Shown here piece after piece: positions 5,488 through 21,987 of a stretch of DNA of 42,834 nt. Numbering within the stretch: the first letter of the stretch is position 1; every line of letters begins with the position of its first letter. The stretch is from NCBI RefSeq assembly GCF_000373925.1, contig NZ_KB892789.1:1-42834 (forward strand). The letters are read 5' to 3'. A program made the translations under genes and the position numbers. The notes under the pieces are model-generated. The model was not told the origin of the DNA. It worked only from the letters and a program-made list of their open reading frames with translations, and ran no database searches. This DNA is from Actinopolymorpha alba DSM 45243. GTDB taxonomy: Bacteria; Actinomycetota; Actinomycetes; Propionibacteriales; Actinopolymorphaceae.

Positions 5488-5537
5488 TAGTCCCCTCGTG
5501 GGTAAGGGCTCGGACCTGCCTGGTACCTCCCCGGTTG

Positions 5538-5601
5538 TTGAGTTGGGTCCGAAACTGTAGACTCCGCGGCCTTCGGTCTACACTTTTAGGACCCAACTCA
5601 A
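5538..5601. terminator. Long hairpin, probable bidirectional terminator
   Basis: Outer arms TTGAGTTGGGTCC (5538-5550) and GGACCCAACTCAA (5589-5601) are perfectly complementary over 13 bp. Inner arms TGTAGAC (5556-5562) and GTCTACA (5576-5582) pair too, with a GAAA/TTTT segment between that is largely paired, and a GC-rich loop containing CCGCGG. It lies 50 bp after the zinc-ribbon stop and 32 bp after the mmsA stop, between convergent genes, so it can stop transcription from both sides. It would close the 15-gene operon on the minus strand. Confidence 0.8.
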
Positions 5602-5632
5602 AGCTGGCTCAACCAAGAGTGGGTAGCGGTCG

Positions 5633-7165
5633 TTAGTTGGCGGGAAATCCCATACTGATCTGGCTCTCATTCGCCTCGGGCCACCTGCTCGTGACGACTT
5701 TCCGGCGGGTGTAGAAATTGAAGCTCTCTGGACCGTAGATGTGCGTGTCGCCGAAGAGGGAGTTCTTCCAGCCACCGAATGAGAACGCACCGATCGGAAC
5801 GGGGATCGGCACGTTGACCCCCACCATGCCGACTTCGATATCGAACTCGAACTCCCGCGCGGTCTTTCCGTCACGGGTGAAGATCGCCACTCCGTTGGCG
5901 TACTCATTACTGTTGATGAGCGAGACGGCCTCGTCGTAGCTCGCCACCCGGGCGATCGAAAGCACCGGCCCGAAGATCTCCTCGTCATAGACGCGCATTC
6001 CGGGGACGACCTTGTCGATCAGCGACGGACCGATGAAGAAGCCGTCACCGTCGAACCGGAGCTGCCGCCCGTCAACGACGACGCTCGCACCCTCGGCGGG
6101 CGCACCCTCGACGAAACCGGCGACCCGGTCCCGCGCCTCCTGGGTGATCAAAGGCCCCATCTCAGTGGCCGGGTCCGCACCGTCACCCACGTGAAGCGCG
6201 CCGAGCCGGTCCGTGATCTTGGCGATGAGCGGATCGGCGACGTCGCCGACCGCGACGAGGACGGACACGGCCATGCAGCGCTCGCCGGCCGAGCCGTACG
6301 CGGCGGAGACGGCAGCGTCAGCCGCGGCGTCCAGGTCGGCGTCGGGCATCACCACCATGTGGTTCTTCGCCCCACCGAGGGCCTGGACCCGCTTTCCGTT
6401 GGCGGCCGCCCGCGCGTAGATGTACTTCGCGATCGGCGTCGACCCGACGAAGGAAGCGGCTCTCACCACGGGATCGTCGAGCAGGGCATCCACCGCCTCC
6501 TTGTCCCCGTGAACGACGTTGAGGATCCCGTCGGGCAACCCGGACTCGGCGAACGCCTTGGCGATCCACACCGCGGCGGACGGATCCCGCTCAGACGGCT
6601 TGAGGATGACCGCGTTCCCCGCCGCGATCGCGGTCGTGACCATCCACAGCGGAACCATCGCCGGGAAGTTGAACGGCGTGATGCATGCGACTACCCCAAG
6701 CGGCTGCTTGACCTGATGTACGTCGACACCGGTGGCAACCTGCTCGGAGTACTCCCCCTTCAGGTGGTGAAGGAGCCCCGCACAGAACTCGACGTTCTCC
6801 AGACCGCGCGCGATCTCCCCTGCCGCGTCAGGAACGGTCTTGCCGTGCTCCGCGGTGATGATGCGGGCGAGCTCGTCGCCGCGCTCGCGGAGGATCCGGT
6901 GCAACTCGAACAGCACCTTGGCCCGCTTGGCCAGCCCGGTCCGGCGCCAACCCGGTTGGGCCGCCTCCGCGACCCGAACCGCCTCGTGCACGAACTCCGC
7001 GGTGGCGAGTGGCACGTGCTTCGTCTGCCGCCCGGTCGCCGGGTTGTGGACAGCACCCATCCGGGTTGCTTCGCGTGCCTCCCGTCCGCCCACAAGGTGC
7101 GGGATCACGGCGAGTGTCGCGGGATCGGTGGCCCGTCCACCGGCTTCCAGTGACGTGTCGGTCAT
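5633..7165 (-). CDS. mmsA: CoA-acylating methylmalonate-semialdehyde dehydrogenase
   Basis: A full-length 510-residue aldehyde dehydrogenase-fold enzyme. The catalytic Cys is about 297 in GERCMA. The segment ALGGAKNHMVV has Asn where ordinary ALDHs have the general-base Glu, a hallmark of the methylmalonate/malonate-semialdehyde group (MmsA, IolA), as is the PIPVPIGAFSFGGWK segment near the C-terminus. The family oxidises methylmalonate semialdehyde to propionyl-CoA, or malonate semialdehyde to acetyl-CoA, with NAD+ and CoA and loss of CO2. It has a strong GGAGGAG site before ATG 7165 and is the last gene of the operon, 14 bp after the oxidoreductase. In this context it probably handles a C3-C4 semialdehyde released by the pathway rather than valine or inositol breakdown. 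Confidence 0.92.
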   Translation of the reverse strand: MTDTSLEAGGRATDPATLAVIPHLVGGREAREATRMGAVHNPATGRQTKHVPLATAEFVHEAVRVAEAAQPGWRRTGLAKRAKVLFELHRILRERGDELARIITAEHGKTVPDAAGEIARGLENVEFCAGLLHHLKGEYSEQVATGVDVHQVKQPLGVVACITPFNFPAMVPLWMVTTAIAAGNAVILKPSERDPSAAVWIAKAFAESGLPDGILNVVHGDKEAVDALLDDPVVRAASFVGSTPIAKYIYARAAANGKRVQALGGAKNHMVVMPDADLDAAADAAVSAAYGSAGERCMAVSVLVAVGDVADPLIAKITDRLGALHVGDGADPATEMGPLITQEARDRVAGFVEGAPAEGASVVVDGRQLRFDGDGFFIGPSLIDKVVPGMRVYDEEIFGPVLSIARVASYDEAVSLINSNEYANGVAIFTRDGKTAREFEFDIEVGMVGVNVPIPVPIGAFSFGGWKNSLFGDTHIYGPESFNFYTRRKVVTSRWPEANESQISMGFPAN

Positions 7166-7179
7166 CTTCTCCTCCTCGG

Positions 7180-8121
7180 TTAGCTGGTGGGTACCGGGCC
7201 GGTGGTGCGGAGCACGACCTTGCCGCGAACGTGACCCTGGAGCAGGTGACGGTAAGCCGCCCGCACCTCGTCGAGTTCGTACGTCGCGTCGATCGGTAGC
7301 ACCAGGCGACCCGCGGCGATGTCCTCGGCGACCACCCGCACCGCCGCGGGTTCAGTCGCGCGACGGCCGACCGAGAGCACGCCGTAGGACGCGGCCAGGT
7401 CGGCGTCGATGATGGCGTTGACGCGCTGCGGTGGAACACCGAGCGCCAGGGCCTGCTCGATGTCATCAGCACCGCGGGTGGCGAAGACGGCCGAGAGACC
7501 ACCGGGCGCGAGCGTTCGCAGCCGATCAGCCAGCTGTGGGCCGTACTCGACCGGCTCGACGCCGAGGGCACGCAGGTAGTCGTGGTTTCGAACGCTGGCA
7601 CTGCCAAGGACCCGGGCACCGGTCGCCCGGGTCAGCTGGACGGCAAGGATCCCGACCCCTCCGGCGGCGCCGCTCACGTAGACGGTGTCTACGGAGGTGA
7701 GCCGGAGAGCCGCCACGCCAGCCAAGGCGGTCCGGCCGGCGATGTCGAGCGCCCCGGCCACCTCGACACCCAGTCCTGGGGGCACGGGGTTGAGGGTGCT
7801 GAGGTCATCGATGATCAGGTGGTCGGCCTGAGCACGCAGCCGCGCCCCGCCATACACCAGGTCTCCGACGGCGACACCCTCGACGCCGGCACCGACCTGA
7901 TCGATCACCCCGGCGAAGTCGTTGCCCATGCCGGCGGGCACGCGCACCCCGAAGCGGTCGGCTATCGGCCCGCCGGCGAGGATCTTCGCGTCGACCGGAT
8001 TGAGCCCGGCGACGAGCACCCGGACGCGTACCTGACCGGATCCGACCGTCGGTGCGCGGCCCGTCTCGACGGTCAGCGCGTCGACCCCGCCGAAGCGATC
8101 GAAGATGACTCGACGCGACAT
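7180..8121 (-). CDS. Zinc-free MDR oxidoreductase (quinone reductase-like)
   Basis: A 313-residue medium-chain dehydrogenase/reductase of the zinc-less branch. It has the GroES-like N-terminal half (GMGNDFAGVIDQVGAGV) and a Rossmann half with SGAAGGVGILAVQL (about 150-163), the NADP(H)-binding AxxGxxG-type loop of quinone oxidoreductases and enoyl reductases. None of the zinc ligands of alcohol dehydrogenases are in place. It likely reduces or oxidises an enoyl or quinone-like intermediate with NADPH. Its ATG is immediately next to the thiolase stop (8121/8122), so translation is coupled. Substrate is not inferable. Confidence 0.85.
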   Translation of the reverse strand: MSRRVIFDRFGGVDALTVETGRAPTVGSGQVRVRVLVAGLNPVDAKILAGGPIADRFGVRVPAGMGNDFAGVIDQVGAGVEGVAVGDLVYGGARLRAQADHLIIDDLSTLNPVPPGLGVEVAGALDIAGRTALAGVAALRLTSVDTVYVSGAAGGVGILAVQLTRATGARVLGSASVRNHDYLRALGVEPVEYGPQLADRLRTLAPGGLSAVFATRGADDIEQALALGVPPQRVNAIIDADLAASYGVLSVGRRATEPAAVRVVAEDIAAGRLVLPIDATYELDEVRAAYRHLLQGHVRGKVVLRTTGPVPTS

Positions 8122-9291
8122 TCAGCGCTCCAGCACGACGGCGAGCCCCTGGCCGACGCCGATGCAGATCGCCGCCACACCGACCCCCCGCCCACGAGCC
8201 GCGAGGGAGCGCGCGAGGTGTCCCACGACCCGGGTCCCGGACGCCCCCAGGGGGTGGCCGATCGCGATCGCGCCTCCGTGCACGTTGACCTTGTCTGGGT
8301 CGAGGTCCGGCCAGAGGGCGAGGCAGGCGAGCGACTGGGCGGCGAATGCCTCGTTGAGCTCGACGAGATCGACGTCCGCCCACGTCTTGCCGGCCCGCTC
8401 GAGTGCGCGGTTGGCCGCATCGACGGGAGCGATACCGAACCGGTGCGGCTCGTTGGCGGCCGCGGCTCTCGACACGATCCGGGCGAGCGGCTCGGTGCCG
8501 GGCAGCGCATCCTCACCGCCGACTATCACCGCGGACGCACCGTCGTTGAGCGGTGAGGAGTTGCCTGCAGTGACCGTACCGGCGGGCCGGAAGGCCGGCT
8601 TGAGCGCCGCGAGTGCGGCCATCGACGCGTCGACACGGATGCCCTCGTCACGGGTGAGCGAGGCTCCGGGAACACCGACCACCTCCGCGTCGTAGCTGCC
8701 GTTCTCCCAGGCCTGGTTGGCCAGCTGGTGACTGCGCAGTGCGAACGCGTCCTGGTCGTCGCGGCCGATTCCGAACTCGTCCGCGAGGATCTCGGCGGTC
8801 TCGCCGAGGGGTACCGTCCACTGCTCGGGCATCGACGGATTGGTCATGCGCCAGCCGAGGGTCGTCGAGTGCAGCTGTTCGTGACCCGGTGGGTACGGGT
8901 GGGCGGGCTTGCGCATCACCCACGGGGCCCGGCTCATCGACTCCACACCGCCGGCGATCACGAGGTTGGCGTCCCTCGTCTCGACCGCCCGGCTGGCCTG
9001 GATCACCGCTTCCAGGCTCGAGCCGCACAGCCGGTTCACCGTCGTACCAGGGGTCGAAACCGGCAAGCCCGCAAGGAGTGCGGCCATCCTGGCGACGTTG
9101 CGGTTGTCCTCCCCCGCCTGGTTGGCCGCACCGAGGATCACGTCATCGACCAGGGCCGGGTCGAGGTCTGGATGGCGATCGAGCAACGCGCGCAGGGTGT
9201 GTGCGGCGAGGTCGTCCGGACGGATACCCGCGAGCGCCTTTCCGTAGCGCCCGAACGGCGTACGCACGGCGTCGTAGATGTAGCTGGTCAT
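8122..9291 (-). CDS. Acetyl-CoA C-acyltransferase (thiolase)
   Basis: A 389-residue degradative thiolase. The nucleophilic Cys is at 89 in NRLCGSSLEAV, the His is in GGAIAIGHPLGASG near 345, and the second Cys is in CIGVGQG near 376, where the usual text is CxGxGQG. This type cleaves 3-oxoacyl-CoA with CoA, releasing acetyl-CoA or propionyl-CoA; the sequence is close to PcaF-like 3-oxoadipyl-CoA thiolases but the substrate cannot be fixed. The start ATG at 9291 overlaps the stop of the crotonase by 4 bp (ATGA). A longer upstream frame reads through the crotonase gene out of phase and is not used. Confidence 0.9.
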   Translation of the reverse strand: MTSYIYDAVRTPFGRYGKALAGIRPDDLAAHTLRALLDRHPDLDPALVDDVILGAANQAGEDNRNVARMAALLAGLPVSTPGTTVNRLCGSSLEAVIQASRAVETRDANLVIAGGVESMSRAPWVMRKPAHPYPPGHEQLHSTTLGWRMTNPSMPEQWTVPLGETAEILADEFGIGRDDQDAFALRSHQLANQAWENGSYDAEVVGVPGASLTRDEGIRVDASMAALAALKPAFRPAGTVTAGNSSPLNDGASAVIVGGEDALPGTEPLARIVSRAAAANEPHRFGIAPVDAANRALERAGKTWADVDLVELNEAFAAQSLACLALWPDLDPDKVNVHGGAIAIGHPLGASGTRVVGHLARSLAARGRGVGVAAICIGVGQGLAVVLER

Positions 9292-10094
9292 GACCTCGCC
9301 CCTCCCTCGCGCCGCTCCTGCGGCGCCGTGTGCTCGGCTGGCCTGCGCTCGAGGAACGCCTGCTGAGACTCTCGTGCGTACGCGGTGGTCGAGAGCTCGT
9401 AGGTCACGGACTGCTCGAAGCGGTACCCGTCGCGCAGCGGCATGAGCTCGACGGCGTTGAACGTCGCCTTCGCCTTTGCCACCGCGGGTGGGTGCTTCGT
9501 CGCGATCTCGCGGGCGATTCCCAGGGCCGTCGGTATGAGTTCGGTGTCGGGTACGACGTCGGCGACCGCCCCGTGCCGGAGCAGGTCGTTCCCGCCCAGC
9601 CGGCGGCCCGTGAAGAACAACAGCCGGCAGAGCGTCCGAGGTAGGTGCTGCTCGAGGAACTTCGCACCACCCATCAGCCCCCGGTCGAGTTCCGGCATCT
9701 GGATCCACGCCGACTCGGCGGCGACGATGATGTCGCAGCCGGCGGCCAGTGCGTAGCCGGCGCCGATGGCTGGTCCGTTGAGGGCGGCGATCACGGGTTT
9801 GGGGCAGTCGGTCAGCGCGAAGAAGCTCTCCCGGGTGACCCGGTTGTGTCGCAGGTAATCAGCCGCGCCACCCTCGATGGTGACCCGCTCCTTGATGTCT
9901 GCCCCGGCCGAGAAGACCTTGCCCGCCCCGGTGAGTACCACGGCACGGATGTCGTCCCGCTCGGCTATCGCGTCGGCGAGCCAGACGAGTTCCTCCCGGG
10001 TACGTCGATCCTGGGCGTTCACCGGCGGCCGGTCGAAGGTGAGCAAAGCGACACCAGGCTCGACCAGCTCGAGGCGAAATCGTTCGAGTCGCAC
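9288..10094 (-). CDS. Enoyl-CoA hydratase/isomerase family protein (crotonase fold)
   Basis: A 268-residue crotonase. The oxyanion-hole segments are FSAGADIKE and NGPAIGAGYALAAGCD. Of the two catalytic glutamates of enoyl-CoA hydratase, the one in MPELDRG (Glu164 of rat mitochondrial hydratase) is kept, but the Glu144 position in GYALAAGCD appears to be Ala. That suggests isomerase, hydrolase, C-C lyase or altered hydratase activity rather than classic hydration. GTG 10094 was chosen because the protein then starts at the expected VRLERFRLELVEPG; it lies 4 bp after the epimerase stop. It overlaps the thiolase start. Confidence 0.85.
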   Translation of the reverse strand: MRLERFRLELVEPGVALLTFDRPPVNAQDRRTREELVWLADAIAERDDIRAVVLTGAGKVFSAGADIKERVTIEGGAADYLRHNRVTRESFFALTDCPKPVIAALNGPAIGAGYALAAGCDIIVAAESAWIQMPELDRGLMGGAKFLEQHLPRTLCRLLFFTGRRLGGNDLLRHGAVADVVPDTELIPTALGIAREIATKHPPAVAKAKATFNAVELMPLRDGYRFEQSVTYELSTTAYARESQQAFLERRPAEHTAPQERREGGARS

Positions 10095-10098
10095 GTGG

Positions 10099-11085
10099 TC
10101 ACCGTTCCCGGGCGGCGGCGCGCCAGTCGATGAACGCCTGGAGCCCATGCGTGTAGTCGGGGTCCGGAGCGAAGCCGAGTAGCTGGCGGGCCCGGGACGG
10201 GTCGTAGTAACGGGCGGTCGAGATGGCACCGTTCGGCTGGCTCGGGCCTGTCCACTCGATCTGCGTCGGCGCTCCGTAAAGCCGCAGAAGCGCCGTGAGC
10301 ACGTCCTCGAGCCGAGTGGCGGCACCAGTGGAGACATTGATCGGCGCATTGACCTGGCCACCATCAAGGCCACTGGCAAGGCCAACGTCAAGCGCACGGA
10401 CGAAGCACTCGGCCGCATCGGCGACCTGCACCCAGTCGAGGGCTGCGTTCGGATCACCATCGACTGTTGGCACCCGTCCGGCGTCGACGTCGTCGAGCAC
10501 CGACAGGAGGAACCTCGAGGTGAGGCCCATCCGCAGGCGGGCCCCGAACAGAACGCCAAGGCGCAGGGCGGCCCACCGCATCCCGTTCGCCGCGGCGAAT
10601 GCCTCCGCGTAGCGCTCATTGACGTACTTGCTCAGTCCGTAGAAGTCGCGGGTGAGTGCCTCGTCGGTCTCGACGAACGGTGCCGGCGCCGCTCCGCCCA
10701 CAGCCGTACGGTTCACGCCGTAGACGGAGCCGGAGGAGGCGAAGACGACCGGCTTGTTCCCGGCGACCTCGAAGAGGGTGTGGGTGGCCACCACGTTGAC
10801 CGCGAGGAGCGGTCCAGCCGGGCTGCCGCCGGCCTTCGGCAGGATCGCCGCCACATGCACGACGGCGTCGGCCGCGCCGACCAGAGAGCCGAGGAGGCGT
10901 GCGTCCGTCACGTCGCCCACCACGTCGGTCACCTGGTCCGCCGGCGACTCGTGCCCGTAACCGGGTTCACCACGGGCGAGGTCGAGGGCGATTACCTGGT
11001 GTCCCTCACGACTGAGCCGATCAACGATGTGCGACCCGAGCATGCCGTTCGCCCCGGTCACGAGGACCGTCCGTCCCCTGGCCAT
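10099..11085 (-). CDS. NAD-dependent epimerase/dehydratase (extended SDR)
   Basis: A 328-residue extended short-chain dehydrogenase. TGANGMLG near residue 10 is the TGxxGxxG dinucleotide loop, and YGLSKY contains the catalytic YxxxK pair, preceded by the SSGSVYG strand with the active-site Ser. Such enzymes act on nucleotide sugars but also on CoA esters, sterols and flavonoids (3-beta-HSD and dihydroflavonol branches). In an acyl-CoA catabolic operon, oxidation of a hydroxy group on a CoA-linked or ring substrate is more likely than sugar epimerisation. A GGAAGGG site precedes the ATG; it is 66 bp after the SDR stop, the second largest gap in the operon. Confidence 0.82.
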   Translation of the reverse strand: MARGRTVLVTGANGMLGSHIVDRLSREGHQVIALDLARGEPGYGHESPADQVTDVVGDVTDARLLGSLVGAADAVVHVAAILPKAGGSPAGPLLAVNVVATHTLFEVAGNKPVVFASSGSVYGVNRTAVGGAAPAPFVETDEALTRDFYGLSKYVNERYAEAFAAANGMRWAALRLGVLFGARLRMGLTSRFLLSVLDDVDAGRVPTVDGDPNAALDWVQVADAAECFVRALDVGLASGLDGGQVNAPINVSTGAATRLEDVLTALLRLYGAPTQIEWTGPSQPNGAISTARYYDPSRARQLLGFAPDPDYTHGLQAFIDWRAAARER

Positions 11086-11150
11086 CTGTTGTCCCTTCCT
11101 GCCGTCGCTGGGTCAGCCGCTACCAAGGCCCGCTGGAGCTCACGCCGCCC

Positions 11151-11894
11151 TCACATGTGCCGACCGCCGGCAACCTCGACGACGGTTCCGGTGATGTACG
11201 CGGAAAGGTCGCTGGCCAGGAAGAGCGCGGCATTGGCGACGTCGCTGATCTCCCCCAGCCGCCCGAGCGGGATGTCCTTGAGCCGGTCGGCGAGGAGTTC
11301 CGGCGACAGACCCTCGATCATCGCCGTCCGGATCAGGCCCGGCTGGAGCGCGTTCACCCGTACACCGAAGCGCGCGCACTCCTTCGCCGCGGCCTTGGTG
11401 AGTCCGACCATGCCGGCCTTCGCGGCGCTGTAGCTGGTCTGGCCCGGATTGCCGACCTTGCCGGAGATCGACGACATGTTGAGGATCGAGCCGCCGCGCC
11501 CGAGGTCACGCATCGCCTGGCTCGCCGCCCGCGTACCCAACCAGGCGCCGAGCAGATGAACGTGGATGACGGCGAGGAAGTCCTCGACTGTCATCTTCCG
11601 CATCGAGGCGTCCCGCGTGAAGCCGGCGTTGTTGACGAACACGTCGAGGGACGCGAACTCCTTCAGGGCCCGCTCGACCAGGGCGGCGACGGAGGACTCG
11701 TCGGTGACGTCGCAACCGCATCCGATCGCCTCGACCCCGGACTCGACGAGGGTCCGCGCCCGCGCCTCGGCCGCGTCCGCGTCGATGTCGGCGACCACGA
11801 TCCGGGCGCCGCTCGCCCCGAAGACGCTGGCTATCTCGGCGCCGATCCCGCGCGCGGATCCCGTCACGACCGCGGTCTTTCCTTGCAGCAGCAT
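11151..11894 (-). CDS. SDR-family oxidoreductase (FabG-like 3-hydroxyacyl dehydrogenase)
   Basis: A 247-residue classical short-chain dehydrogenase. TGSARGIG at about 11-18 is the cofactor loop, VADIDAD carries an Asp after beta-2 that favours NAD(H), NNAG is the structural motif, and SSISG plus YSAAK give the Ser-Tyr-Lys catalytic triad. The C-terminus (TGTVVEVAGGRHM) is FabG-like. In this cluster it is the best candidate for oxidising a 3-hydroxyacyl-CoA to the 3-oxoacyl-CoA used by the thiolase. The ATG lies 3 bp after the alcohol dehydrogenase stop. Confidence 0.87.
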   Translation of the reverse strand: MLLQGKTAVVTGSARGIGAEIASVFGASGARIVVADIDADAAEARARTLVESGVEAIGCGCDVTDESSVAALVERALKEFASLDVFVNNAGFTRDASMRKMTVEDFLAVIHVHLLGAWLGTRAASQAMRDLGRGGSILNMSSISGKVGNPGQTSYSAAKAGMVGLTKAAAKECARFGVRVNALQPGLIRTAMIEGLSPELLADRLKDIPLGRLGEISDVANAALFLASDLSAYITGTVVEVAGGRHM

Positions 11895-11897
11895 GCG

Positions 11898-13007
11898 TTA
11901 GTCCTTCGGCTTCACGTCGACGACAGCCCGGCCCACGATCCGCCGTTCGTCGAGCGCGCGGTAGGCGGCGCCAGCACCGTCGAGGTCGAACCGGTCGGTG
12001 ATGAGGGGGTCGACCTGGATCCGCCCGGTGGCCGCGAGTTCGAGCACGGCCGGCATGTCGGTGCGGGCCCGGGCGCCGTAGGAGCCGAGGATCTGTATCT
12101 TGCGCCGGACAACGTGCGCGATGTTCAGCCGGGCGGTCACCCCGGCCGGTGCGATGCCCACGAGCACCACCCGCCCGCCGTCATCGACGCTCCCGATCGC
12201 GGTCTCTACGGTCGTGGCAGCCCCCAGCGCCTCGAACGCCACGTCGACACCCCGGCCGCCGGTGATCTCCCGGACGCGTGCGACAGCGTCTTCCTCGCTG
12301 GCGTCGACCACATGCGTCGCGCCGAGCTCGCGCGCGAGGGCCAGTTTCTCGGCACTCACATCGACCGCGACGATGGTCGAGGCGCCGAACGCCGCGGCCA
12401 TCTGCACGATGTTGAGCCCGATGCCGCCGACGGCGACCACCGCGACCGACTCGCCTACCCCGAGCCGGGCGACGTTCTTGACCGCACCGTAGCTGGTGAA
12501 GACACTGCAGCCGAGGATGGCGGCGTTGTTGAGGTCGAGGCCCGCTGGTAGCGGAAACACGTCCGTCGCGGGTACGACGGCGTACTCCGCCAGCCCGCCC
12601 ATCGAGTACATCGCGATCGGCTTTCCATCGAGGTCGGCCAGCCGGCTGGTGCCGTCGTAGAGGGTCCCCTTGAGCCGGTTGAACGCGAAGAAGGTCTCGC
12701 ACAGGTCCTCGTGCCCGCGTACACAGTGCCGGCACCTGCCGCACGGCATGATGAAGCTGCACGCCACCCGGTCGCCGACGTTGAGCCCGCTGACACCGGC
12801 ACCGAGTTCGGCCACGTGGCCGGTGATCTCATGTCCCAGCACGCACGGCGCCGGGAAGGCGACCTCGCCTTTCATCACGTGCAGGTCCGTGTGGCAGACG
12901 CCGCAGGCCGCGACCTCGACCAGGACCTCGCCGTAACCCGGCCGCGGATCCGCGAGCGCTTCGACGCCAAGGTCGGCGCCGACCTCCCGGAGCACCGATG
13001 CCCTCAT
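11898..13007 (-). CDS. Zinc-dependent alcohol dehydrogenase (MDR)
   Basis: A 369-residue MDR alcohol dehydrogenase with both zinc sites: catalytic ligands Cys38 (CGVCHTDLH) and His59-Glu60 (GHE), and structural ligands Cys89, 92, 95 and 103 in CGRCRHCVRGHEDLC. The Rossmann loop is VAVGGIGLN, followed by an Asp (VAVDVS) suggesting NAD+. It would oxidise an alcohol or hydroxyacid side chain, possibly giving the aldehyde used by the ALDH at the end of the operon. ATG 13007 overlaps the MaoC stop by 4 bp (ATGA), which fixes the start; the open frame further upstream runs through the MaoC gene out of phase. Confidence 0.9.
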   Translation of the reverse strand: MRASVLREVGADLGVEALADPRPGYGEVLVEVAACGVCHTDLHVMKGEVAFPAPCVLGHEITGHVAELGAGVSGLNVGDRVACSFIMPCGRCRHCVRGHEDLCETFFAFNRLKGTLYDGTSRLADLDGKPIAMYSMGGLAEYAVVPATDVFPLPAGLDLNNAAILGCSVFTSYGAVKNVARLGVGESVAVVAVGGIGLNIVQMAAAFGASTIVAVDVSAEKLALARELGATHVVDASEEDAVARVREITGGRGVDVAFEALGAATTVETAIGSVDDGGRVVLVGIAPAGVTARLNIAHVVRRKIQILGSYGARARTDMPAVLELAATGRIQVDPLITDRFDLDGAGAAYRALDERRIVGRAVVDVKPKD

Positions 13008-13504: not shown

Positions 13505-13509
13505 GTCCT

Positions 13510-14526
13510 TCACCCGCTCACACCCGATGTCGTCTGCCAGAGCACAGGTCTTCCTTTCGTTGCCGTGACCATCTCTGCGTCGAGGGCATCGAGGAGGTAC
13601 GCCTCCGCCTCCCCCGTAGCCGCCAAGCGTGCGTTGCCGTCCAGCTCGGACCATGCGCGGCGCCGCCGCATGCGCGCGGCGATCTGCCACGCTGTGGACC
13701 GGGTTGTCGCGAGCTGGGTAACTTCTGAGCGCTTCTCGTCGTACACCGCGCGAAGGACCCGCATCCGTGCCGCGAGGTCGTCGAACGGATCGTCGTGGCC
13801 AGGGAGCACCACCGCCGGCTCCAGCGCCAGGAGACGCTCGGTCGAAGCCCAGTACTCCTTCAGAGGACGCTCGGGCGCATAGGGCCTGCTCGTCGCGTTG
13901 GCCCGGCGGCTCGCGAAGACATGATCTCCGCTGAACAGCAGTCGTAGGTCCTCGTCGAGGTAGCAGGTGTGGCCCGGAGTGTGACCTGGCGCGTGCACGA
14001 CGCGGATCCGCCTACCACCGAAGCTGACCACCTCATCGTCGGCGAGTACGACGTCAGGCCGCACCGGCCGGGTTCGCGAGGCGATCTCCGCGTACTGTCG
14101 CAGCGCGAACTCGGCACCGGCCGGATCGGCTCCGACGCGTGACAGCCACTGCTGGAGGACGTGCGCGAATCCGCCGCCATCCTCGAAGCGGGCTCGCAGT
14201 GCACGCCACTCGGCGGCGTGCATCGCGACGCGGACGCCGTACTCAGACTGGAGTAACCCAGCCGCGCCAGCATGGTCATCGTGATGGTGCGTGAGAAGGA
14301 CGTACCGCAGTGCGGCTGGTTCGACGCCCGCGGCACGCACCTGCGCGAGCAGCTCCGCGTAGGTGTCGGGTGTCCCCCACGGCACGTCGATCAGTACCGC
14401 GCCATCGTCGGAGTCGAGCAGGTAGGCATTGACAGAGCCGAAACTGTGCCCAGGTAACCGCACCCGCAACAACCACGTCCGCGCCGAGATCTCAACGAGA
14501 GAAGGCTTTGCGTCGACCGAATCCAT
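13510..14526 (-). CDS. MBL-fold metallo-hydrolase
   Basis: A 338-residue metallo-beta-lactamase fold protein. HHHDDH is the metal-binding signature; further ligands are in HAPGHTPGH, SGDH and LPGHDDP, so both zinc sites look complete. The C-terminal helical region fits the glyoxalase-II-like/thioesterase branch. Family activities include thioester, lactone and phosphodiester hydrolysis; inside this operon a CoA-thioesterase or lactonase role is plausible. ATG 14526 is chosen because GAGGTGG stands about 8 bases upstream; the alternative at 14571 would overlap the permease by 32 bp. Confidence 0.85.
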   Translation of the reverse strand: MDSVDAKPSLVEISARTWLLRVRLPGHSFGSVNAYLLDSDDGAVLIDVPWGTPDTYAELLAQVRAAGVEPAALRYVLLTHHHDDHAGAAGLLQSEYGVRVAMHAAEWRALRARFEDGGGFAHVLQQWLSRVGADPAGAEFALRQYAEIASRTRPVRPDVVLADDEVVSFGGRRIRVVHAPGHTPGHTCYLDEDLRLLFSGDHVFASRRANATSRPYAPERPLKEYWASTERLLALEPAVVLPGHDDPFDDLAARMRVLRAVYDEKRSEVTQLATTRSTAWQIAARMRRRRAWSELDGNARLAATGEAEAYLLDALDAEMVTATKGRPVLWQTTSGVSG

Positions 14527-14539
14527 TGTGGACGCCACC

Positions 14540-16285
14540 TCAGGCGCCCCTCCGGTAGCGCTGACGACCAAGCAGGATGAAGAGAATCACGGCCGTACTG
14601 GTGATCGCGGTGACGATCGTGGCGAACGCCGCCATCGGACCGACCGTGCCGTTCTCCCAGATCTCCACGAGCACGAACCCGATGACCGGCGTCTTGGTTC
14701 CCGCCAGCAACGTGGACGCCGCGAGTTCCCCCACGATGAGTACGAAGATCAGCGCCCACGCGTTCAGCAGGCCTGGCCGGGCCAGCGGAAGCGTGATGCG
14801 GGTGAAGGTTCGCCACTCCCTGCCACCGGAGATGTAGGACGCCTCGGTCAGGTCGCCACCGACCTGCGACAGGGCGTTGGAGGTCGTCGTCGACACCTGC
14901 GGCATGAAGATCACGAGGTACGCGAGCAGCAGGATGACGTACGTTCCGTTGAGGTGGAACGGTGGCCCGCTGAACGTCACCACGAACCCCAGCGCGATCA
15001 CGATGGCGCTGAAGGCCGCCGGTAGCTTCGTCACCGCGTCGAGGATGCTGCCGATCCTCGGACTGATGATGACGCCGAAGGAGGTGCGGCGCCGGGCGAT
15101 GGCGATGATCGTGGTCACCGCCACCGCTACCAGACCGCCGAGTAGACCGAGGAGAACACTCGTCTCCAGTGCCTTGCTGGCGACCCGGTGCTTGAACAGC
15201 ATGCGCTCGAAGTGCTGCAGGCCAAGGTGGGAGAAGTCGATCGTCGGCGTCCAGTATGGCTGGAGCGCGACCAGGATCACCGCCAGCAGCGGAAGGACCG
15301 TGGTCATCAGCAGATAGCTGATCGTGATCACGCGAAGGACGATCCGCCAGCGACCGAGCCGCATCTTCGCGTTGCCACTGCGCCCGCTGATCATGGCGTG
15401 CTGGCCGCGACGCGTCACGGCGTTCTGCAGCAGCCAGGCGGAAAGAACGAACACCAGCAGGATCGTGGTCAGGACAGTCGCGCTGGCGAGGTCCGAAGGA
15501 AACTCGAAATGCATCAGGCGCACGATCCGCACCGACAGGATGTCGATGCCGGCGCCCGTTCCGATCACCACCGGAGCCGAATAGAGGGCGAATCCGACCA
15601 CGACGAGGAGAAAGAACGCCGACACCATCGCCTGCGAGACTGCGGGCAGCGACACCCGCACAATCGTCTTCAGGACGCCGGCGCCGCTCACCCGCGAAGC
15701 TTCCTCCAGCGCTGGATCGAGATTGCGGAGTGCACCAGCGATAGGGATGTACGCGAACGGCACCAGCTCGAGTGTGTAGACGAAGATGAGCCCCGGCATG
15801 CTGAGAATGTTCAGCTCGAATCCGCCGGGAAGCGCGGCCAGCAGGCCGTTCAGGAAGCCCACCTTCGGCGACGCGAGAAACATCCAGCCAGCGGCCACGG
15901 CGATGGGAGGCATGAGCAGCGGCATCAGCGGCATGAACGTGCCCAGCCAACCAAGCCCCGCATCCGTACGCTCGTTGATCCACGCCAGCGATGACGCCAC
16001 GATCAGCGAGAGCACCGACGAGCAGGCGACCGCGATCACGGTGTCGCGCAGCATCGGCCAGAACCACGGCTGCCGCACCGTCGCCCCGAAGGCATGCAGG
16101 TCCAGGCTTCCATCAGGGAAGAGGGCGCTGACCGTCATGCGCAGAACGGGAAACACCAGCAGCACAAGCAGCACCGCCGAAAGGAGCAGCACCCCGGCCC
16201 TCAGCAGCAGACCCTGCTCGAGGAACCATCGGCGCCACTGGAAACGCCCGGGCGTACGCCGCTCCGCGTCGGTACTCGCGGTCAC
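14540..16285 (-). CDS. ABC transporter permease, two fused BPD_transp_1 domains
   Basis: A 581-residue membrane protein with about twelve hydrophobic segments in two halves. Each half carries an EAA loop that contacts the ATPase: EEASRVSGAGVLKTIVRVSL in the first and TEASYISGGREWRTFTRITL in the second. This duplicated architecture is typical of the FbpB/AfuB (ferric iron, phosphonate, thiamine-like) importer family. A GTG at 16285 overlaps the ATPase stop by 4 bp (GTGA), fixing the start; upstream in-frame sequence belongs to the ATPase gene. Confidence 0.9.
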   Translation of the reverse strand: MTASTDAERRTPGRFQWRRWFLEQGLLLRAGVLLLSAVLLVLLVFPVLRMTVSALFPDGSLDLHAFGATVRQPWFWPMLRDTVIAVACSSVLSLIVASSLAWINERTDAGLGWLGTFMPLMPLLMPPIAVAAGWMFLASPKVGFLNGLLAALPGGFELNILSMPGLIFVYTLELVPFAYIPIAGALRNLDPALEEASRVSGAGVLKTIVRVSLPAVSQAMVSAFFLLVVVGFALYSAPVVIGTGAGIDILSVRIVRLMHFEFPSDLASATVLTTILLVFVLSAWLLQNAVTRRGQHAMISGRSGNAKMRLGRWRIVLRVITISYLLMTTVLPLLAVILVALQPYWTPTIDFSHLGLQHFERMLFKHRVASKALETSVLLGLLGGLVAVAVTTIIAIARRRTSFGVIISPRIGSILDAVTKLPAAFSAIVIALGFVVTFSGPPFHLNGTYVILLLAYLVIFMPQVSTTTSNALSQVGGDLTEASYISGGREWRTFTRITLPLARPGLLNAWALIFVLIVGELAASTLLAGTKTPVIGFVLVEIWENGTVGPMAAFATIVTAITSTAVILFILLGRQRYRRGA

Positions 16286-17559
16286 GCCACACCCCCGGTC
16301 GAGGTGGCCGCGTGCGAAATGCTGCGCTCCTCCGGCAGGAGGTGCACGCATTCGGGAGCGACCGCGATCCAGATCTGGCCGCCCTCTTCGGCGCCGATGT
16401 CCTTGAGCGTCCACACCCGCAGGGTCTGCTCGCCGATCCTGACGAGGTACTGGTAATGCGTGGCGGTGTAGCTGATCCGCTCCAGCTCGGCCGGCCAGGC
16501 GTTCGGCACCTGCGGACGGTCGAGGCTGACGTCGCACTCCTCCGGACGGAACATCGCATAGAGGGACTGGCCCGGTGAGAGAGGCGTTCCCGCCCACTCC
16601 TCGCCCGGGCGCTTCGCGACGATCCTGCCCAGCTCGGTGTCGATAGCCACCGTGTCGCCGGCTGTCGTGTCGCCGGCTGTCGTGTCGTCGGCCGAGTCGC
16701 CACCCGCCGGGTTCTCGGCGGCGGTGGCGAGGGTTGCCGGCAGGAGGTTGGCCAGTCCGACAAACTCCGCGACATAACGCGAACGAGGACGCCGGTAGAC
16801 CTCCCTCGGTGGCGCCAGCTGTTCGATGCGACCGCGGTCGAGCACCGCGATCCGGTCGGCGAGCTCCATCGCCTCCGCCTGGTCGTGCGTCACGTAAAGT
16901 GCCGTGAAGCCGATCTCACGCTGCACCTCGATGATCTGTGCGCGCAGCTCCTCGCGTACCTTCGCGTCGACGTTCGAGAGAGGTTCGTCGAAGAGGATGA
17001 GTTCCGCCTCGCTGACCAGGGCCCGGGCCAGCGCCACCCGCTGCTGCTGGCCACCCGAGAGTTGTCCGGGGTACTGATTCTCGAGTCCGGCGAGGCCAAC
17101 GCGTTCGAGGCCCCTGGCTACCGCCTTCGCGACGGCGGCCTTCGGGAGCTTGCGGGCCCTGAGCGGGTAGGCCACGTTGCTGAAGATCGTCATGTGCGGC
17201 CAGAGCGCGTACGACTGGAAGATCATGCTGATGGGTCGACGATTCGGCGGAACGAACAATCGGCGTGCCGAAGCGAAAACCTCAACACCCTCGATGGTGA
17301 TCGACCCTTCGTCCGGCCGCTCCAGGCCCGCAACGCTGCGCAGCAAGGTGGTCTTGCCGCAACCACTTGGTCCGAGCAGGACGAGGAGCTCGCCCCTGGC
17401 GATATCCAAGCTGACCTGGTCGATCGGGACGACGTCACCGGCTCCCTGCCTCCGGCGGAACCGCTTCACGAGGTTCCTGATCCGCACATGCGGAGTGGGC
17501 GCCGAGCTACCCGACTCCGCGGCCTCCGCCGCGGTAGTCGAATGGGCCATGAGTGTCAT
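16282..17559 (-). CDS. ABC transporter ATP-binding protein
   Basis: A 425-residue importer ATPase. Walker A GPSGCGKT is at 63-70, Q-loop near QSYALW, signature LSGGQ at 167-171, Walker B LILFDE at 187-192, and switch His about 225 in VTHDQ. The C-terminal 150 residues form a TOBE-type regulatory domain, as in FbpC/PotA/UgpC. Between core and TOBE a hydrophilic linker contains TTAGDTTAGDT, coded by two exact copies of a 15-bp unit (16652-16666 and 16667-16681) and part of a third, a likely slippage product. The ATG at 17559 has GGGAG close upstream. It powers the permease and binding protein beside it. Confidence 0.92.
   Translation of the reverse strand: MTLMAHSTTAAEAAESGSSAPTPHVRIRNLVKRFRRRQGAGDVVPIDQVSLDIARGELLVLLGPSGCGKTTLLRSVAGLERPDEGSITIEGVEVFASARRLFVPPNRRPISMIFQSYALWPHMTIFSNVAYPLRARKLPKAAVAKAVARGLERVGLAGLENQYPGQLSGGQQQRVALARALVSEAELILFDEPLSNVDAKVREELRAQIIEVQREIGFTALYVTHDQAEAMELADRIAVLDRGRIEQLAPPREVYRRPRSRYVAEFVGLANLLPATLATAAENPAGGDSADDTTAGDTTAGDTVAIDTELGRIVAKRPGEEWAGTPLSPGQSLYAMFRPEECDVSLDRPQVPNAWPAELERISYTATHYQYLVRIGEQTLRVWTLKDIGAEEGGQIWIAVAPECVHLLPEERSISHAATSTGGVA
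16652..16690. repeat. In-frame 15-bp tandem repeat in the ATPase linker
   Basis: GTGTCGCCGGCTGTC occurs at 16652-16666 and again at 16667-16681, with a partial third copy to 16690. The period is a multiple of three, so copy-number change would keep the reading frame and alter only linker length. Confidence 0.9.
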
Positions 17560-17587
17560 CGCTCCCGTTCCTTCGTGGTGCTGTATC

Positions 17588-18619
17588 TCAGCGTCCGAGC
17601 AGTGTGACGATCTGGTTCTGCTCCGCCTTGCTGACGTCCCAGACCGCGGGCGTGTAGTTGCTGGCGAGCGGCTGGCAGTCCGACTTCTCGTCCTTCTTCA
17701 CCGTCGAATAGACCGGGTCCGCGCAGAGCACCTTGTAGCCCTCCGAGCTGACGAGCCAGTTCACGAAAAGCCGCGCGGCGTTCGGGTTCGGCGCATCCTT
17801 CGAAATGGCGACGCTGGTGGTGAGACCCTGAGTGGGGTCGAGGTCGGTGACCATGCCCACAGGTGCGCCGGACTCCTTCAGGTCAGCGATATGCGAGGGG
17901 TAGTTGGGTAGGGAATAGTCGTACTTCCCAGTCGCGACCTGCTGGGCTCCTACCGCACCACTGTCGACCCAGAGCGGCTTGAGGTCCGCCAGTGCCTTGA
18001 GGTATTCATCGCCGAACCGCTTGCGCATGATCGCGTACCACGACATGTAACCAGGCGAGGACTTCGGGTCGACCAGGATGATCTTGCCCTTGTTCGCGGG
18101 GTTGATGACATCCTTCCAACTGGTCGGTGGCTTGCTGACCTTGTCCGAGTTGTAGACCAGCACCACCGACTCGACCGCGACGTTCAACGAGTTCGACGTA
18201 CGGAAGTCTTTGGGCCAACCAGCCGCGTTCGGGATCTCCTTGTCGGTGAGGTCACCGAACCACTCGGGATGGTCACTGATGAACGACGGCTGCACGGTTG
18301 GCATGAACACATCGGCGGCGACGGAACCAGCCTTGGCCTCAGTCGCATACCTGTTGAGAAGCGAGCTACCCGGAGCACGGAAGGGATTCACCGCGATGTC
18401 GGGGTATTTTTCCATGAACCCGTCCGCGAGCGCCTGGAGTTGGCCCTCGGCAGCGCTCGCGTAGATCGTCAGCTCGCCTTCCTTGTTGGCGGCTTGGACG
18501 AGGGACGCGAGCGGGTCGTTGCTGTTCTCCGTTTTCGTCTCCCCCGAGCTGTTACAGGCGGACGCTGAGACCATCAGCGCGGTCGCGGCCAGTGCCGCGA
18601 GAATCGCCCTCTTCCTCAT
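17588..18619 (-). CDS. Lipoprotein substrate-binding protein of the ABC importer
   Basis: A 343-residue extracytoplasmic binding protein with a lipoprotein signal: positively charged MRKR, hydrophobic stretch, and lipobox SASAC with Cys22 as the lipidated residue. The mature part has the type II periplasmic-binding fold of the FbpA/AfuA (Fe3+) group. The adjacent tyrosine pair that binds iron in FbpA is not obvious; the corresponding region reads GKYDYSLPNYPSH. Relatives in this cluster bind anions such as aminoethylphosphonate or organic acids, so import of the pathway substrate is more likely than iron. GGGAAG precedes the ATG. Encoded first among the transporter genes. Confidence 0.88.
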   Translation of the reverse strand: MRKRAILAALAATALMVSASACNSSGETKTENSNDPLASLVQAANKEGELTIYASAAEGQLQALADGFMEKYPDIAVNPFRAPGSSLLNRYATEAKAGSVAADVFMPTVQPSFISDHPEWFGDLTDKEIPNAAGWPKDFRTSNSLNVAVESVVLVYNSDKVSKPPTSWKDVINPANKGKIILVDPKSSPGYMSWYAIMRKRFGDEYLKALADLKPLWVDSGAVGAQQVATGKYDYSLPNYPSHIADLKESGAPVGMVTDLDPTQGLTTSVAISKDAPNPNAARLFVNWLVSSEGYKVLCADPVYSTVKKDEKSDCQPLASNYTPAVWDVSKAEQNQIVTLLGR

Positions 18620-18671
18620 GGTGTGCTTCCCTTTCTTTCATTGAAAGCAGGCTCGGGTACGCCGAGGTCAC

Positions 18672-19865
18672 TCAGATGACCTGAGATTCGCGGAGCGCGG
18701 AAATCCGCTCCGCGGAATAACCGAGTTCGGTCAGGATCTGCTCGGTGTCCTGACCGACAGTCGGGACGCCCCGGTTCACTCGCAGGGGCGTTTCCGCATA
18801 GTGCAAGGGAGTCGCGACGACCTTGGCTGTTCCGCCGTCCCCACGGGGAACGTCGATGAAGCCGCCGAGCTCGGCCATCTGAATGTCGTCAGCGACCTCG
18901 TCCAGGCTGTTGAGGCGAGCGCACGAAACACCCTGCGCCTCGAGTCCGGCGAGACATTCGGTTGTCGTGAGCGCGCCCGTCACCCGCGAGAACTCCTCGA
19001 CGAGCGCCTTGGTGTTCTCATAGCGAAGCGGCAGGCTCACGAAGCGGGGGTCGTCAGCCAGCTCGGGAACCCCGAGTCCGGCACAGCTCCGGCGCCACAT
19101 CGAGTCGTTCGCCGCCGAGATCACGAGCCAGCCGTCCTTCGTCCTGAACGCTTGGTTCGGGATCCCCAGCCGGTTCGCCGTACCCAGCGGCTTGGGCACC
19201 ACGCCCTTGAGCCAGTAGTCGGCGAAGAAGTAGTTGAGCAGGCTGACCTGGCTCTCGAGCATCGAGGTGAAGACCTGCTGGCCCTGGCCGGTGCGCGCAC
19301 GGTGCATCAGCGCGCCCAGGATGCCGATCACGCCGTAAAGGCCCGCGGAGAAGTCCGAGATCGCCGTGCCGCAACGCACCGGGTCACCATCGGGTTCACC
19401 GGTGAAGCTCATGAGCCCGCTGTAACCCTGGATGACCAGATCGTTCGCGGCCTTCTGGGAAAGGGCGCCCTTGTGCCCGAACCCGCTGATCGAGCCGTAG
19501 ATGACAGAGGGGTTCTCCTTCGCGATCGAGTCGTAGTCGAGGCCCCAGCGCTCCATCAGGCCGATCCGAAAGTTCTGGATGACCACATCAGCGTCGAGCA
19601 GGAGATCCTTGGCGACCTGACGACCGTCCTCCTGGTTGAGGTCGAGTGCCAGGCTGCGCTTGTTGCGGTTGAGCGCGAGGAACGCCCCGCTCATCGGCGG
19701 TTCATCGGCCGACTGTCCGTACGAACGCGCGGAGTCACCGCCACCGCGCCGCTCGATCTTGATCACCTCGGCTCCCATGTCGCCAAGCGTCTGGGTAGCC
19801 AACGGACCAGCGAAGATGTGCGTGAAGTCGACGACCCTGATGCCGCTGAGAATCTGGTTCTGCAT
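18672..19865 (-). CDS. Type III CoA-transferase (CaiB/BaiF family)
   Basis: A 397-residue protein of the formyl-CoA transferase family. The N-terminus (IRVVDFTHIFAGPLATQTLGDMGAEVIKIE) is the family's opening strand-helix, and Asp171 in TAISDFSAG is the conserved aspartate that forms the aspartyl-CoA/anhydride intermediate. These enzymes move CoA between carboxylic acids without ATP. As no acyl-CoA ligase is encoded in the cluster, this is the probable activating enzyme for the imported acid, with an unknown CoA donor. It is 36 bp downstream of the hot-dog gene and upstream of the transporter genes. Confidence 0.92.
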   Translation of the reverse strand: MQNQILSGIRVVDFTHIFAGPLATQTLGDMGAEVIKIERRGGGDSARSYGQSADEPPMSGAFLALNRNKRSLALDLNQEDGRQVAKDLLLDADVVIQNFRIGLMERWGLDYDSIAKENPSVIYGSISGFGHKGALSQKAANDLVIQGYSGLMSFTGEPDGDPVRCGTAISDFSAGLYGVIGILGALMHRARTGQGQQVFTSMLESQVSLLNYFFADYWLKGVVPKPLGTANRLGIPNQAFRTKDGWLVISAANDSMWRRSCAGLGVPELADDPRFVSLPLRYENTKALVEEFSRVTGALTTTECLAGLEAQGVSCARLNSLDEVADDIQMAELGGFIDVPRGDGGTAKVVATPLHYAETPLRVNRGVPTVGQDTEQILTELGYSAERISALRESQVI

Positions 19866-19901
19866 ACCGCTCTTTCGCCGTTCCTTGCTTCCCGCTGACG
19901 G

Positions 19902-20354
19902 TCAGACAGCGTGGGAGCCGGGTGAGTAACTGAGGATGGCCGTATCCGTGTAGGTCGTCAGAAGCTCGTCGGTGCTGGCCGCACGCACCTCGATCTTCAT
20001 CTCGAGGTAGACCCGCCCCTTCTTCTCATAGCGATTACTCACGTATCCGCTCGCCGTCAGGCGCGCTCCGACCGGGACCAGCCGGTGCTGCACCACGTGA
20101 AACTCGTAGTGGATCCGAGCCGTGGGCCCGGGGCCTCCCGGGCAGTTCTTCTTGATGAGGCGGATCTTGTCGATATGCGCCAGGGTCGGCGGCGCGTAGT
20201 GCGTGCCACCCGATCCGACCGGACTGTGGAACTCTTCGGCGAACTCGTCCACACCGTGGCAGTACTCCCGCACCACGAACGAGGACATCTCATACGTGAC
20301 GGGCTCGAGCACATCGCCGACCTCGAGGTCGCTCACGTACCCGTTCAGACTCAT
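19902..20354 (-). CDS. Hot-dog fold protein, MaoC-N-like, lacking the usual motif
   Basis: A 150-residue protein with the beta-alpha pattern of the N-terminal half of FAS1-type/MaoC hydratases (FHSPVGSGGTHYAPPTLAHID, then RIHYEFHVVQHRLVPVGARL and the long strands VYLEMKIEV). The GDxNPIH signature is absent. It is paired with another small hot-dog protein just upstream; in actinobacteria such small subunits often form heterodimeric enoyl-CoA hydratases (for example ChsH1-ChsH2 and HadAB), so the two may assemble into one enzyme. AAGGAG stands about 11 bases before ATG 20354. Confidence 0.72.
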   Translation of the reverse strand: MSLNGYVSDLEVGDVLEPVTYEMSSFVVREYCHGVDEFAEEFHSPVGSGGTHYAPPTLAHIDKIRLIKKNCPGGPGPTARIHYEFHVVQHRLVPVGARLTASGYVSNRYEKKGRVYLEMKIEVRAASTDELLTTYTDTAILSYSPGSHAV

Positions 20355-20395
20355 CTTCGAAACTCTCCTTGGGATGCGGTCGACGGAGCGTGCCG

Positions 20396-20833
20396 TCAGG
20401 CGACCGGTACGGAGGCCACACCGACGGTGACCTTCTGCTCGTTGGCGGTCTGACACCAGACCTCGATCGACCACCGCCCGTCCTCGAGGCCGGTCACCCT
20501 CCCGTGCGCCTGGATGACGTCGTCCTCGTACACGGGCCGGATGAACTTCGTCCGAAGCTCACCCCCGGCCAGGTAGCGCTCGCCGAACTGCTGGTAGAGC
20601 AGGCTGGAGATGTAGTTGGTCGAGAGCATCCCGTCGGCGATGATGCCCGGCAGGCCCTGCTCTTTCGCGTACTCCTCGTCGGTGTGGATGGTCGGCTCCG
20701 CGATCACGAACTCGCCATTGGCGAGCGCCGCGGTCTCCAGCGCGTCGCAGTACCACCGCATCCGTTCGCGGGTCATCGCGCGCGGGGTCGACCAGAAGTG
20801 CTGTCCGACGGCCGCGTCGTGGTCCGCTCCCAT
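20396..20833 (-). CDS. Hot-dog fold protein, MaoC-like, with altered catalytic motif
   Basis: A 145-residue hot-dog protein and the first gene of the operon. Where MaoC hydratases have GDxNPIH, this reads AEPTIHTDEEYA: the His and following acids are kept but the catalytic Asp is not in place; the helix that follows reads ADGML instead of AHGML. It may still be catalytic as one half of a heteromer with the next gene (42-bp gap), or a thioesterase. GAAGGAG is about 10 bases upstream of ATG 20833. The longer open frame to 21049 lacks a start with a ribosome site and enters the promoter region. Confidence 0.72.
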   Translation of the reverse strand: MGADHDAAVGQHFWSTPRAMTRERMRWYCDALETAALANGEFVIAEPTIHTDEEYAKEQGLPGIIADGMLSTNYISSLLYQQFGERYLAGGELRTKFIRPVYEDDVIQAHGRVTGLEDGRWSIEVWCQTANEQKVTVGVASVPVA

Positions 20834-21944: not shown

Positions 21945-21987
21945 CCCGATTCCCGGCGGCCACTTTCCCTCTCCGCCGGTTGAGGTC

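Follow-up and report, generated by a model that had tools for sequence, protein, structure and literature searches.

In the adipate (dca) and phenylacetate (PaaF-PaaH-PaaJ) pathways, the coenzyme A (CoA) ester of a C6 diacid is hydrated and oxidized, and 3-oxoadipyl-CoA thiolase then yields succinyl-CoA and acetyl-CoA; DcaIJ is a CoA-transferase. The dcaAKIJP genes convert adipate to 2,3-didehydroadipyl-CoA according to an excerpt of PMC12337976, and the lower-pathway steps to succinyl-CoA and acetyl-CoA are as given in passages of PMC8336102. Other comparable systems are the hydroxyquinol/maleylacetate operons, including two plasmid loci (L034 and L035), the succinate-glutarate/succinate-hydroxymethylglutarate CoA-transferases (NF052585, SUGCT), and a cluster of Cnuibacter physcomitrellae (L032, plasmid NZ_CP020716.1, 854-15164). 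Here we compare with these systems a locus of Actinopolymorpha alba DSM 45243 in the 42,834-bp stretch NZ_KB892789.1 (the window), which is the entire contig C83 of an 8.0-Mb draft genome. The locus comprises 15 genes, g1 to g15, all on the minus strand at 5633-20833 and all with a usable start (15/15), and a divergent regulator gene, g16.

The operon is a real, coherent, and rare variant of CoA-dependent dicarboxylate pathways, with a testable but putative substrate class. Our favored reading, held at somewhat below even confidence, is that a conserved seven-gene catabolic core, joined by strain-specific additions, would degrade an unsaturated or hydroxylated dicarboxylate, probably C6, to acetyl-CoA and succinyl-CoA. 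The core, which is accompanied by the GntR regulator gene, contains the following genes; family calls were made with Pfam and NCBIfam on the 16 window proteins (g1 to g16), and scores are written as score/cut-off.

g3, 8122-9291, minus strand: thiolase (generic thiolase model; most like 3-oxoadipyl-CoA thiolases)
g4, 9288-10094, minus strand: crotonase (ECH_1; NF005073, 307.7/296)
g6, 11151-11894, minus strand: FabG-like short-chain dehydrogenase/reductase (SDR) (NF004198, 322.8/296)
g8, 13004-13504, minus strand: MaoC hydratase (PF01575, 84.3/27)
g13, 18672-19865, minus strand: type III CoA-transferase (CoA_transf_3, PF02515, 401.3/23.3), nearest to succinate-dicarboxylate CoA-transferases
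g14, 19902-20354, minus strand: small, likely hot-dog (FAS1_DH-like) protein, assigned via its homolog in genome G859
g15, 20396-20833, minus strand: small MaoC-like hot-dog protein (MaoC, 46/27)

Compared with the dca and paa systems, the window has a type III CoA-transferase, MaoC and SDR proteins in place of PaaF and PaaH, an extra hot-dog pair, and a crotonase with a single Glu; it lacks the DcaA-type acyl-CoA dehydrogenase of dca, and no type I CoA-transferase (DcaIJ/PcaIJ) was matched in it. The hydroxyquinol/maleylacetate operons have a thiolase 61 to 63% identical to g3, and their PcaIJ-type transferase is shared by two relatives of the locus (G859 and G1060), whereas the window operon has neither a ring-cleavage dioxygenase nor a maleylacetate reductase and L034 and L035 gave no match to g4, g8, g13, g14, or g15. 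SUGCT is both the best family and the best PDB match of g13 (9br7, E 6.3e-72). The Cnuibacter cluster resembles the window operon in its thiolase (70%), SDR (59%), annotated MaoC, crotonases, and Liv importer but encodes an AMP-type ligase and a pair of acyl-CoA dehydrogenases where the window has the CoA-transferase, with no match to g13, g14, or g15; it is possibly the saturated-acid counterpart of the window operon. No report assigning the cluster to a substrate was found in open-licence PMC, including the available portions of PMC12689856 and PMC12543098, which is weak evidence, most subscription papers lying outside that collection.

The core recurred in other genomes. In G246 and G260, two genomes of one genus in another family, the genes for the GntR regulator, g15, g14, the CoA-transferase, MaoC, SDR, crotonase, and thiolase were found in the order of the window at 59.5 to 72.5% identity (7/7 core genes), and because this order recurs in another family, the gene set is more than a chance assembly. 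For the other eight window genes, the 40-kb stretches of G246 and G260 gave nothing specific, only generic ABC-ATPase matches of 27 to 32%. Downstream of the thiolase, both genomes carried a Liv-type importer, an MmgE/PrpD protein, a metallo-beta-lactamase (MBL)-fold protein, two alpha/beta hydrolases, and a D-2-hydroxyacid dehydrogenase; the second hydrolase was nearest to PcaD-type models (pcaD, 138/256), and the first tied with an unrelated model. A further locus, L012, had a different order: Liv, MmgE/PrpD, MBL, D-2-hydroxyacid dehydrogenase, crotonase, SDR, g15, and the beginning of g14. L012 (NYUD01000093.1) is titled a Planctomycetota metagenome-assembled genome, and its cluster is 57 to 77% identical to the window, which points to wrong binning or horizontal transfer.

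Two genomes had a partial core. G859 encoded homologs of g14 (about 36-37%), g15 (46%), the CoA-transferase (49%), the crotonase (47%), and the thiolase (66%), together with an FbpABC-like importer (34 to 44%), TctA, TctB, TctC, a PcaIJ-type CoA-transferase, and an ADP-forming ligase-type protein. In G1060, g14 and g15 homologs were present twice on two small contigs, with the CoA-transferase (47%), the thiolase (66%), a PcaIJ-type transferase, TctA, and TctC. The subunits of the PcaIJ-type transferase in the G859 stretch L022 scored over both subfamily cut-offs, and those of L046 (G1060) were 62.6 and 55.7% identical to them. At 10994-11995 of L022 (G859:C61), the CoA-transferase and TctB genes are separated by one with a Dak1 domain (dihydroxyacetone-kinase-like). 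Of the set that the preliminary description proposed for a neighborhood search, the CoA-transferase and paired hot-dog genes recur, and an FbpABC-like importer is also present in G859, whereas MmsA had no counterpart in the sequence examined near the other cores. A CoA-transferase without a ligase describes the window correctly but is not a general rule, given the acyl-CoA ligase-type protein of G859.

Homologs of g14 were rare in all genome samples, which overlap: 3/293 genomes of the order (E ≤ 1e-10, the source genome included), 1/396 of the phylum (the source genome alone), 3/394 of the class (E ≤ 1e-4, including the source genome and a weak match in G742), 2/19 of the genus and 3/198 of the family of G246, and 1/12 of the genus and 1/22 of the family of G859. 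A general scan of genome contigs gave one contig, and no homolog was found on plasmids. G742 was rejected as a core member, its g14 match being weak and its cluster containing a ligase. The weak g14/g15-like pair in that genome (L023, G742:C1, about 9200-11536) is beside an apparent AMP-forming ligase. Hot-dog pairs like g14/g15 may serve several acyl-CoA pathways.

What the sequences show directly is gene content, a gene order conserved in two relatives, varying importers, motif states, and the similarity of the thiolase; each reaction, and the substrate itself, we infer. An organic diacid that is already unsaturated or hydroxylated, probably C6, would be imported, here by the FbpABC-like importer, and g13 would pass CoA to it from succinyl-CoA. 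The g14/g15 pair may then act as a two-subunit hydratase/dehydratase on the CoA ester, which is the least certain step. Crotonase g4 would shift the double bond from delta3 to delta2, g8 would add water to give the (R)-3-hydroxyacyl-CoA, and g6 would oxidize this product with NAD. Finally, thiolase cleavage would yield acetyl-CoA and succinyl-CoA, the latter re-priming the transferase. A transferase drawing on succinyl-CoA and a thiolase returning it would form a closed loop, which would explain the absence of a ligase. The preliminary description had also noted the absence of an acyl-CoA dehydrogenase, and indeed no such Pfam domain was found in the 16 scanned window proteins; this absence and the isomerase-like crotonase together suggest that the substrate enters already oxidized, as an unsaturated or hydroxylated acid. 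A C6 enedioate, hydroxyadipate, or its lactone fits best, and a lactone would be a suitable target of the MBL and other hydrolases.

The motif states of the core enzymes are consistent with these assignments. In the crotonases of the five aligned members (the alignment does not include G1060), the position of the first hydratase Glu holds Ala, or Val in G859, and the second Glu is retained; a crotonase with the second Glu alone is typical of isomerases rather than hydratases. The MaoC motif GDFNPIH (G-D-x-N-P-x-H) was intact in 3/3 aligned members, the SDR Asp after beta-2 and the Ser-Tyr-Lys residues in all five rows (four members and Cnuibacter), and the CoA-transferase Asp in 4/4 aligned members. 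On plasmids, all 498 records matching g13 were below 60% identity, and the one context opened (Roseomonas, 46%) had no hot-dog match. Three hot-dog proteins had been described in the operon; g8 and g15 exceeded the Pfam cut-off, and g14 did not. For FAS1_DH_region (cut-off, 22), the scores were 13.9 for g14, 21.6 for G246, 19.2 for G260, and 31.4 for the G859 homolog, and it is because this homolog passes that g14 is called a likely hot-dog protein. A profile comparison of g14 with g15 (hhalign) gave a probability of 4%, which does not support kinship.

A small alicyclic or lactone acid is an alternative substrate, whose ring the crotonase would open as a hydrolase while the hot-dog pair served as a hydratase, by analogy to the ligase clusters of Azospirillum and Roseovarius plasmids. 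In those clusters annotated MaoC pairs adjoin a crotonase and a thiolase, the protein listed first in each pair gives a weak match to the g14 profile, and MBL proteins are present in the window, G246, G260, and L012, as are alpha/beta hydrolases in G246 and G260. Against this, the plasmid pairs are just 35 to 36% identical to g15 over 90 to 94 amino acids, and the thiolases there belong to a different type that has an OB-fold partner (no pcaF-family match in Roseovarius; Thiolase_C_1 in Azospirillum), so we regard this explanation as improbable. Plasmid matches to g15 numbered 13 records, all below 60% identity, and the three contexts opened were unlike the core.

The thiolase g3 was 66 to 73% identical to the thiolases of the other core members and only 38 to 41% identical to the five paralogs in its own genome. 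A plasmid search with g3 matched 1,273 records, and four contexts were opened among the 40 listed: the Cnuibacter thiolase (70%), within a ligase cluster with acyl-CoA dehydrogenases; a Streptomyces cadmiisoli thiolase (63%), beside hydroxyquinol dioxygenase/maleylacetate reductase and CoA-transferase A/B genes; a Pseudarthrobacter thiolase (61%), after a maleylacetate reductase gene and with CoA-transferase A/B; and a Sinorhizobium meliloti thiolase (51%), annotated pcaF, with CoA-transferase A/B. For the pcaF equivalog, g3 (459/597) scored below the cut-off, as did the thiolases of L034 (416) and L035 (479), while S. meliloti PcaF (694) was above it. E. coli and C. glutamicum, which according to a part of PMC8336102 possess PaaJ and PcaF, likewise scored below it. 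The substrate of g3 is most likely, by this similarity, 3-oxoadipyl-CoA or a close analog.

A competing explanation keeps the same core logic but replaces the substrate with a C5-C8 dicarboxylate that is branched or substituted, or with a diacid derived from a tricarboxylate (a relative of itaconate or aconitate), from which the thiolase would release a branched acyl-CoA rather than succinyl-CoA. The MmgE/PrpD genes adjoining the cores of G246, G260, and L012, the Tct-family importer proteins of G859 and G1060, and the score of g3 below the pcaF cut-off all agree with it; MmgE/PrpD and Tct families often serve tri- and dicarboxylates. Opposing it, the opened thiolases beside CoA-transferase A/B lie in 3-oxoadipate-type operons, two members (G859 and G1060) have a PcaIJ-type transferase, and a CitE/HpcH-type lyase was not found in the 16 window proteins (the members' proteins were scanned in part). 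We consider this explanation possible but rather unlikely. The itaconate-type route proper (CoA-transferase, hydratase, and citramalyl-CoA lyase) was rejected, as the 16 window proteins include no lyase.

Several observations weigh against a C6 dicarboxylate route to succinyl-CoA. The thiolase g3 exceeded the cut-off only for the generic model TIGR01930 (427/241), and since the Cnuibacter cluster uses a ligase and acyl-CoA dehydrogenases, thiolases of this group are not confined to a single substrate. The thiolase tree was weakly supported and mostly unresolved, with S. meliloti PcaF grouping with the paralogs of the source genome and not with g3. In the PDB ranking for g3, the beta-ketoadipyl-CoA thiolase 6pca (2.9e-102) was fourth of six, behind three entries whose names say no more than thiolase or putative acetyl-CoA acetyltransferase. 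The top match, 7vtr, is presumably Tfu_0875, an identity that is not used as evidence here; Tfu_0875 of Thermobifida fusca is listed as a 3-oxoadipyl-CoA thiolase in an excerpt of PMC8706239. The CoA-transferase g13 missed the cut-off of NF052585 (317.5/750), the best of seven families listed, and at 317.5 of 750 bits its acceptor is likely other than that of the NF052585 enzymes. Moreover, the core gene order of L012 differs from that of the window, the MmgE/PrpD, MBL, and D-2-hydroxyacid dehydrogenase genes of G246, G260, and L012 are superfluous to the model, the 32 kb scanned in G859 held no g8 homolog, and g10, g11, and g12 of the importer fell below equivalog cut-offs.

The remaining enzymes and the importer of the operon are encoded by the following genes.

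g1, 5633-7165, minus strand: MmsA-type CoA-acylating aldehyde dehydrogenase (methylmalonate-semialdehyde dehydrogenase [MMSDH] model TIGR01722, 643.5/448.5, above cut-off)
g2, 7180-8121, minus strand: medium-chain dehydrogenase/reductase (MDR) oxidoreductase (ADH_N and ADH_zinc_N_2 over cut-off; below all NCBIfam cut-offs)
g5, 10099-11085, minus strand: extended SDR, epimerase-like (Epimerase, 115/20.9)
g7, 11898-13007, minus strand: zinc-type MDR alcohol dehydrogenase (TIGR03989, 258.4/440, below cut-off)
g9, 13510-14538, minus strand: MBL-fold hydrolase (Lactamase_B, 120.6/22.7)
g10, 14540-16285, minus strand: fused ATP-binding cassette (ABC) permease, FbpB/PhnU2-like (BPD_transp_1; 43% to L022)
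g11, 16282-17559, minus strand: ABC ATPase (ABC_tran; 44% to L022)
g12, 17588-18619, minus strand: substrate-binding protein (SBP_bac_1; the best of five G859 matches is the one inside the cluster, 35%)

No match to MmsA, either MDR, the extended SDR, or the g9 MBL appeared in the sequence examined next to the cores of G246, G260, L012, G859, and G1060, and the MBL protein of L012 had no window match at E ≤ 1e-8. By this distribution, MmsA and the additional dehydrogenases appear to be strain-specific extras, which makes a semialdehyde unlikely as the core product. The MBL protein, alcohol dehydrogenase, extended SDR, MDR, and MmsA might prepare extra precursors, such as a lactone, alcohol, or aldehyde. 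The preliminary description had the operon likely ending in acetyl-CoA and a C3-C4 semialdehyde; on that reading, MmsA would carry the semialdehyde on to propionyl- or acetyl-CoA. A genuine MMSDH-family gene does close the operon, as a second copy beside one scoring higher (749 bits) elsewhere in the genome (G000:C1:312745-314178). Nevertheless, MmsA, both MDRs, and the extended SDR went unmatched in the sequence examined near the other cores, and g1 has Lys just before QPLGV where the paralog has Arg; the Arg at this position of MmsA binds the substrate carboxylate, so g1 may use an aldehyde other than that of its paralog. Taken by itself, the core leads from the CoA-transferase to the thiolase, whose resemblance predicts acetyl-CoA and succinyl-CoA; the semialdehyde is therefore not supported as an end product, and we judge that scheme to have little chance of being correct.

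The class of importer, assigned in the members by domain scan, varied around the core: FbpABC-like in the window and G859, Liv-type in G246 (Peripla_BP_6 and BPD_transp_2 domains), G260, and L012, and TctABC in G859 or TctA/TctC in G1060. The cluster copy of g12 in G859 was followed by a match of 28%, and at E ≤ 1e-8 there was no g12 match in G246 or G260 and no second copy in the source genome (G000). Scores for the PhnS2, PhnT2, and PhnU2 equivalogs were 66.2/392.75, 317/457.7, and 132.5/593.25, respectively. Import of iron or 2-aminoethylphosphonate was rejected because the NCBIfam cut-offs were missed.

The layout agrees with a single catabolic operon that has its own importer and regulator, as the preliminary description had proposed; the family matches bear this out, and its 15 same-strand genes, divergent FadR-type regulator, and far-end hairpin were confirmed by the coordinates, a GntR+FCD match, and a 17-nt inverted repeat. 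Spacing over the 14 junctions ranged from -4 to +65 bp, with 4-bp overlaps at three (g3/g4, g7/g8, and g10/g11), gaps of 0 to 5 bp at five (g2/g3, 0; g9/g10, 1; g6/g7, 3; g4/g5, 4; g8/g9, 5), and gaps of 14 to 65 bp at the remaining six. The flanking elements were as follows.

g16, 21165-21944, plus strand: divergent GntR/FCD regulator (Pfam GntR and FCD; 59.5% to G246 and G260)
Operator-like site, 20876-20896, minus strand: 21-mer, a direct repeat with a 14-bp period, common to G246 and G260
Hairpin past the last gene, 5538-5601, minus strand: 17-nt arms, candidate terminator without a T-run (inverted-repeat search and fold)

The end of the 21-mer ATCAAWTATCNNAAATCAAAT is 42 bp ahead of g15, and the site likewise precedes g15 in G246 and G260; these two genomes belong to one genus and do not count as independent. 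The window sequence agreed with each of them at 18/21 positions, a small margin over the best of 40 shuffles (16 for G246 and 17 for G260). Allowing up to three mismatches, the pattern had one site in the 8-Mb genome, matched there without mismatch because it was built from the window, and none in 100 window shuffles. The 21-mer is thus a candidate operator of g16. The hairpin arms (5538-5554 and 5585-5601) are 94% complementary, with a minimum free energy of -54.3 kcal/mol over 140 nt, and a terminator scan found no T-tailed site there. No sigma-70-like sites were found at 5100-22000, a result that carries little weight in a high-GC genome. Elsewhere in the window, 30263-33661 encodes a 1,132-amino-acid protein with superfamily I helicase domains (AAA_11 and AAA_12) and a C-terminal PLD-like domain, and 34911-38210 is an open reading frame of 1,099 amino acids with no Pfam match at E ≤ 0.001.

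It is conceivable, if doubtful, that the operon represents a route, so far not described, by which C6 enedioic or hydroxy/lactone diacids are degraded, with a self-priming succinyl-CoA loop, R-stereochemistry, a portable seven-gene core served by three unrelated importer classes, and a g14/g15 step without a characterized counterpart. In any case, what had been a vague operon for an "unknown acid" becomes a testable unit, with 3-oxoadipyl-CoA as the candidate intermediate and succinyl-CoA as the candidate CoA donor. If the C6 reading is true, the operon would provide a ligase-free route for oxidized C6 diacids, compounds that stand between aromatic degradation and adipate metabolism, and would be a case in which a catabolic core is retained while importers of three classes differ.

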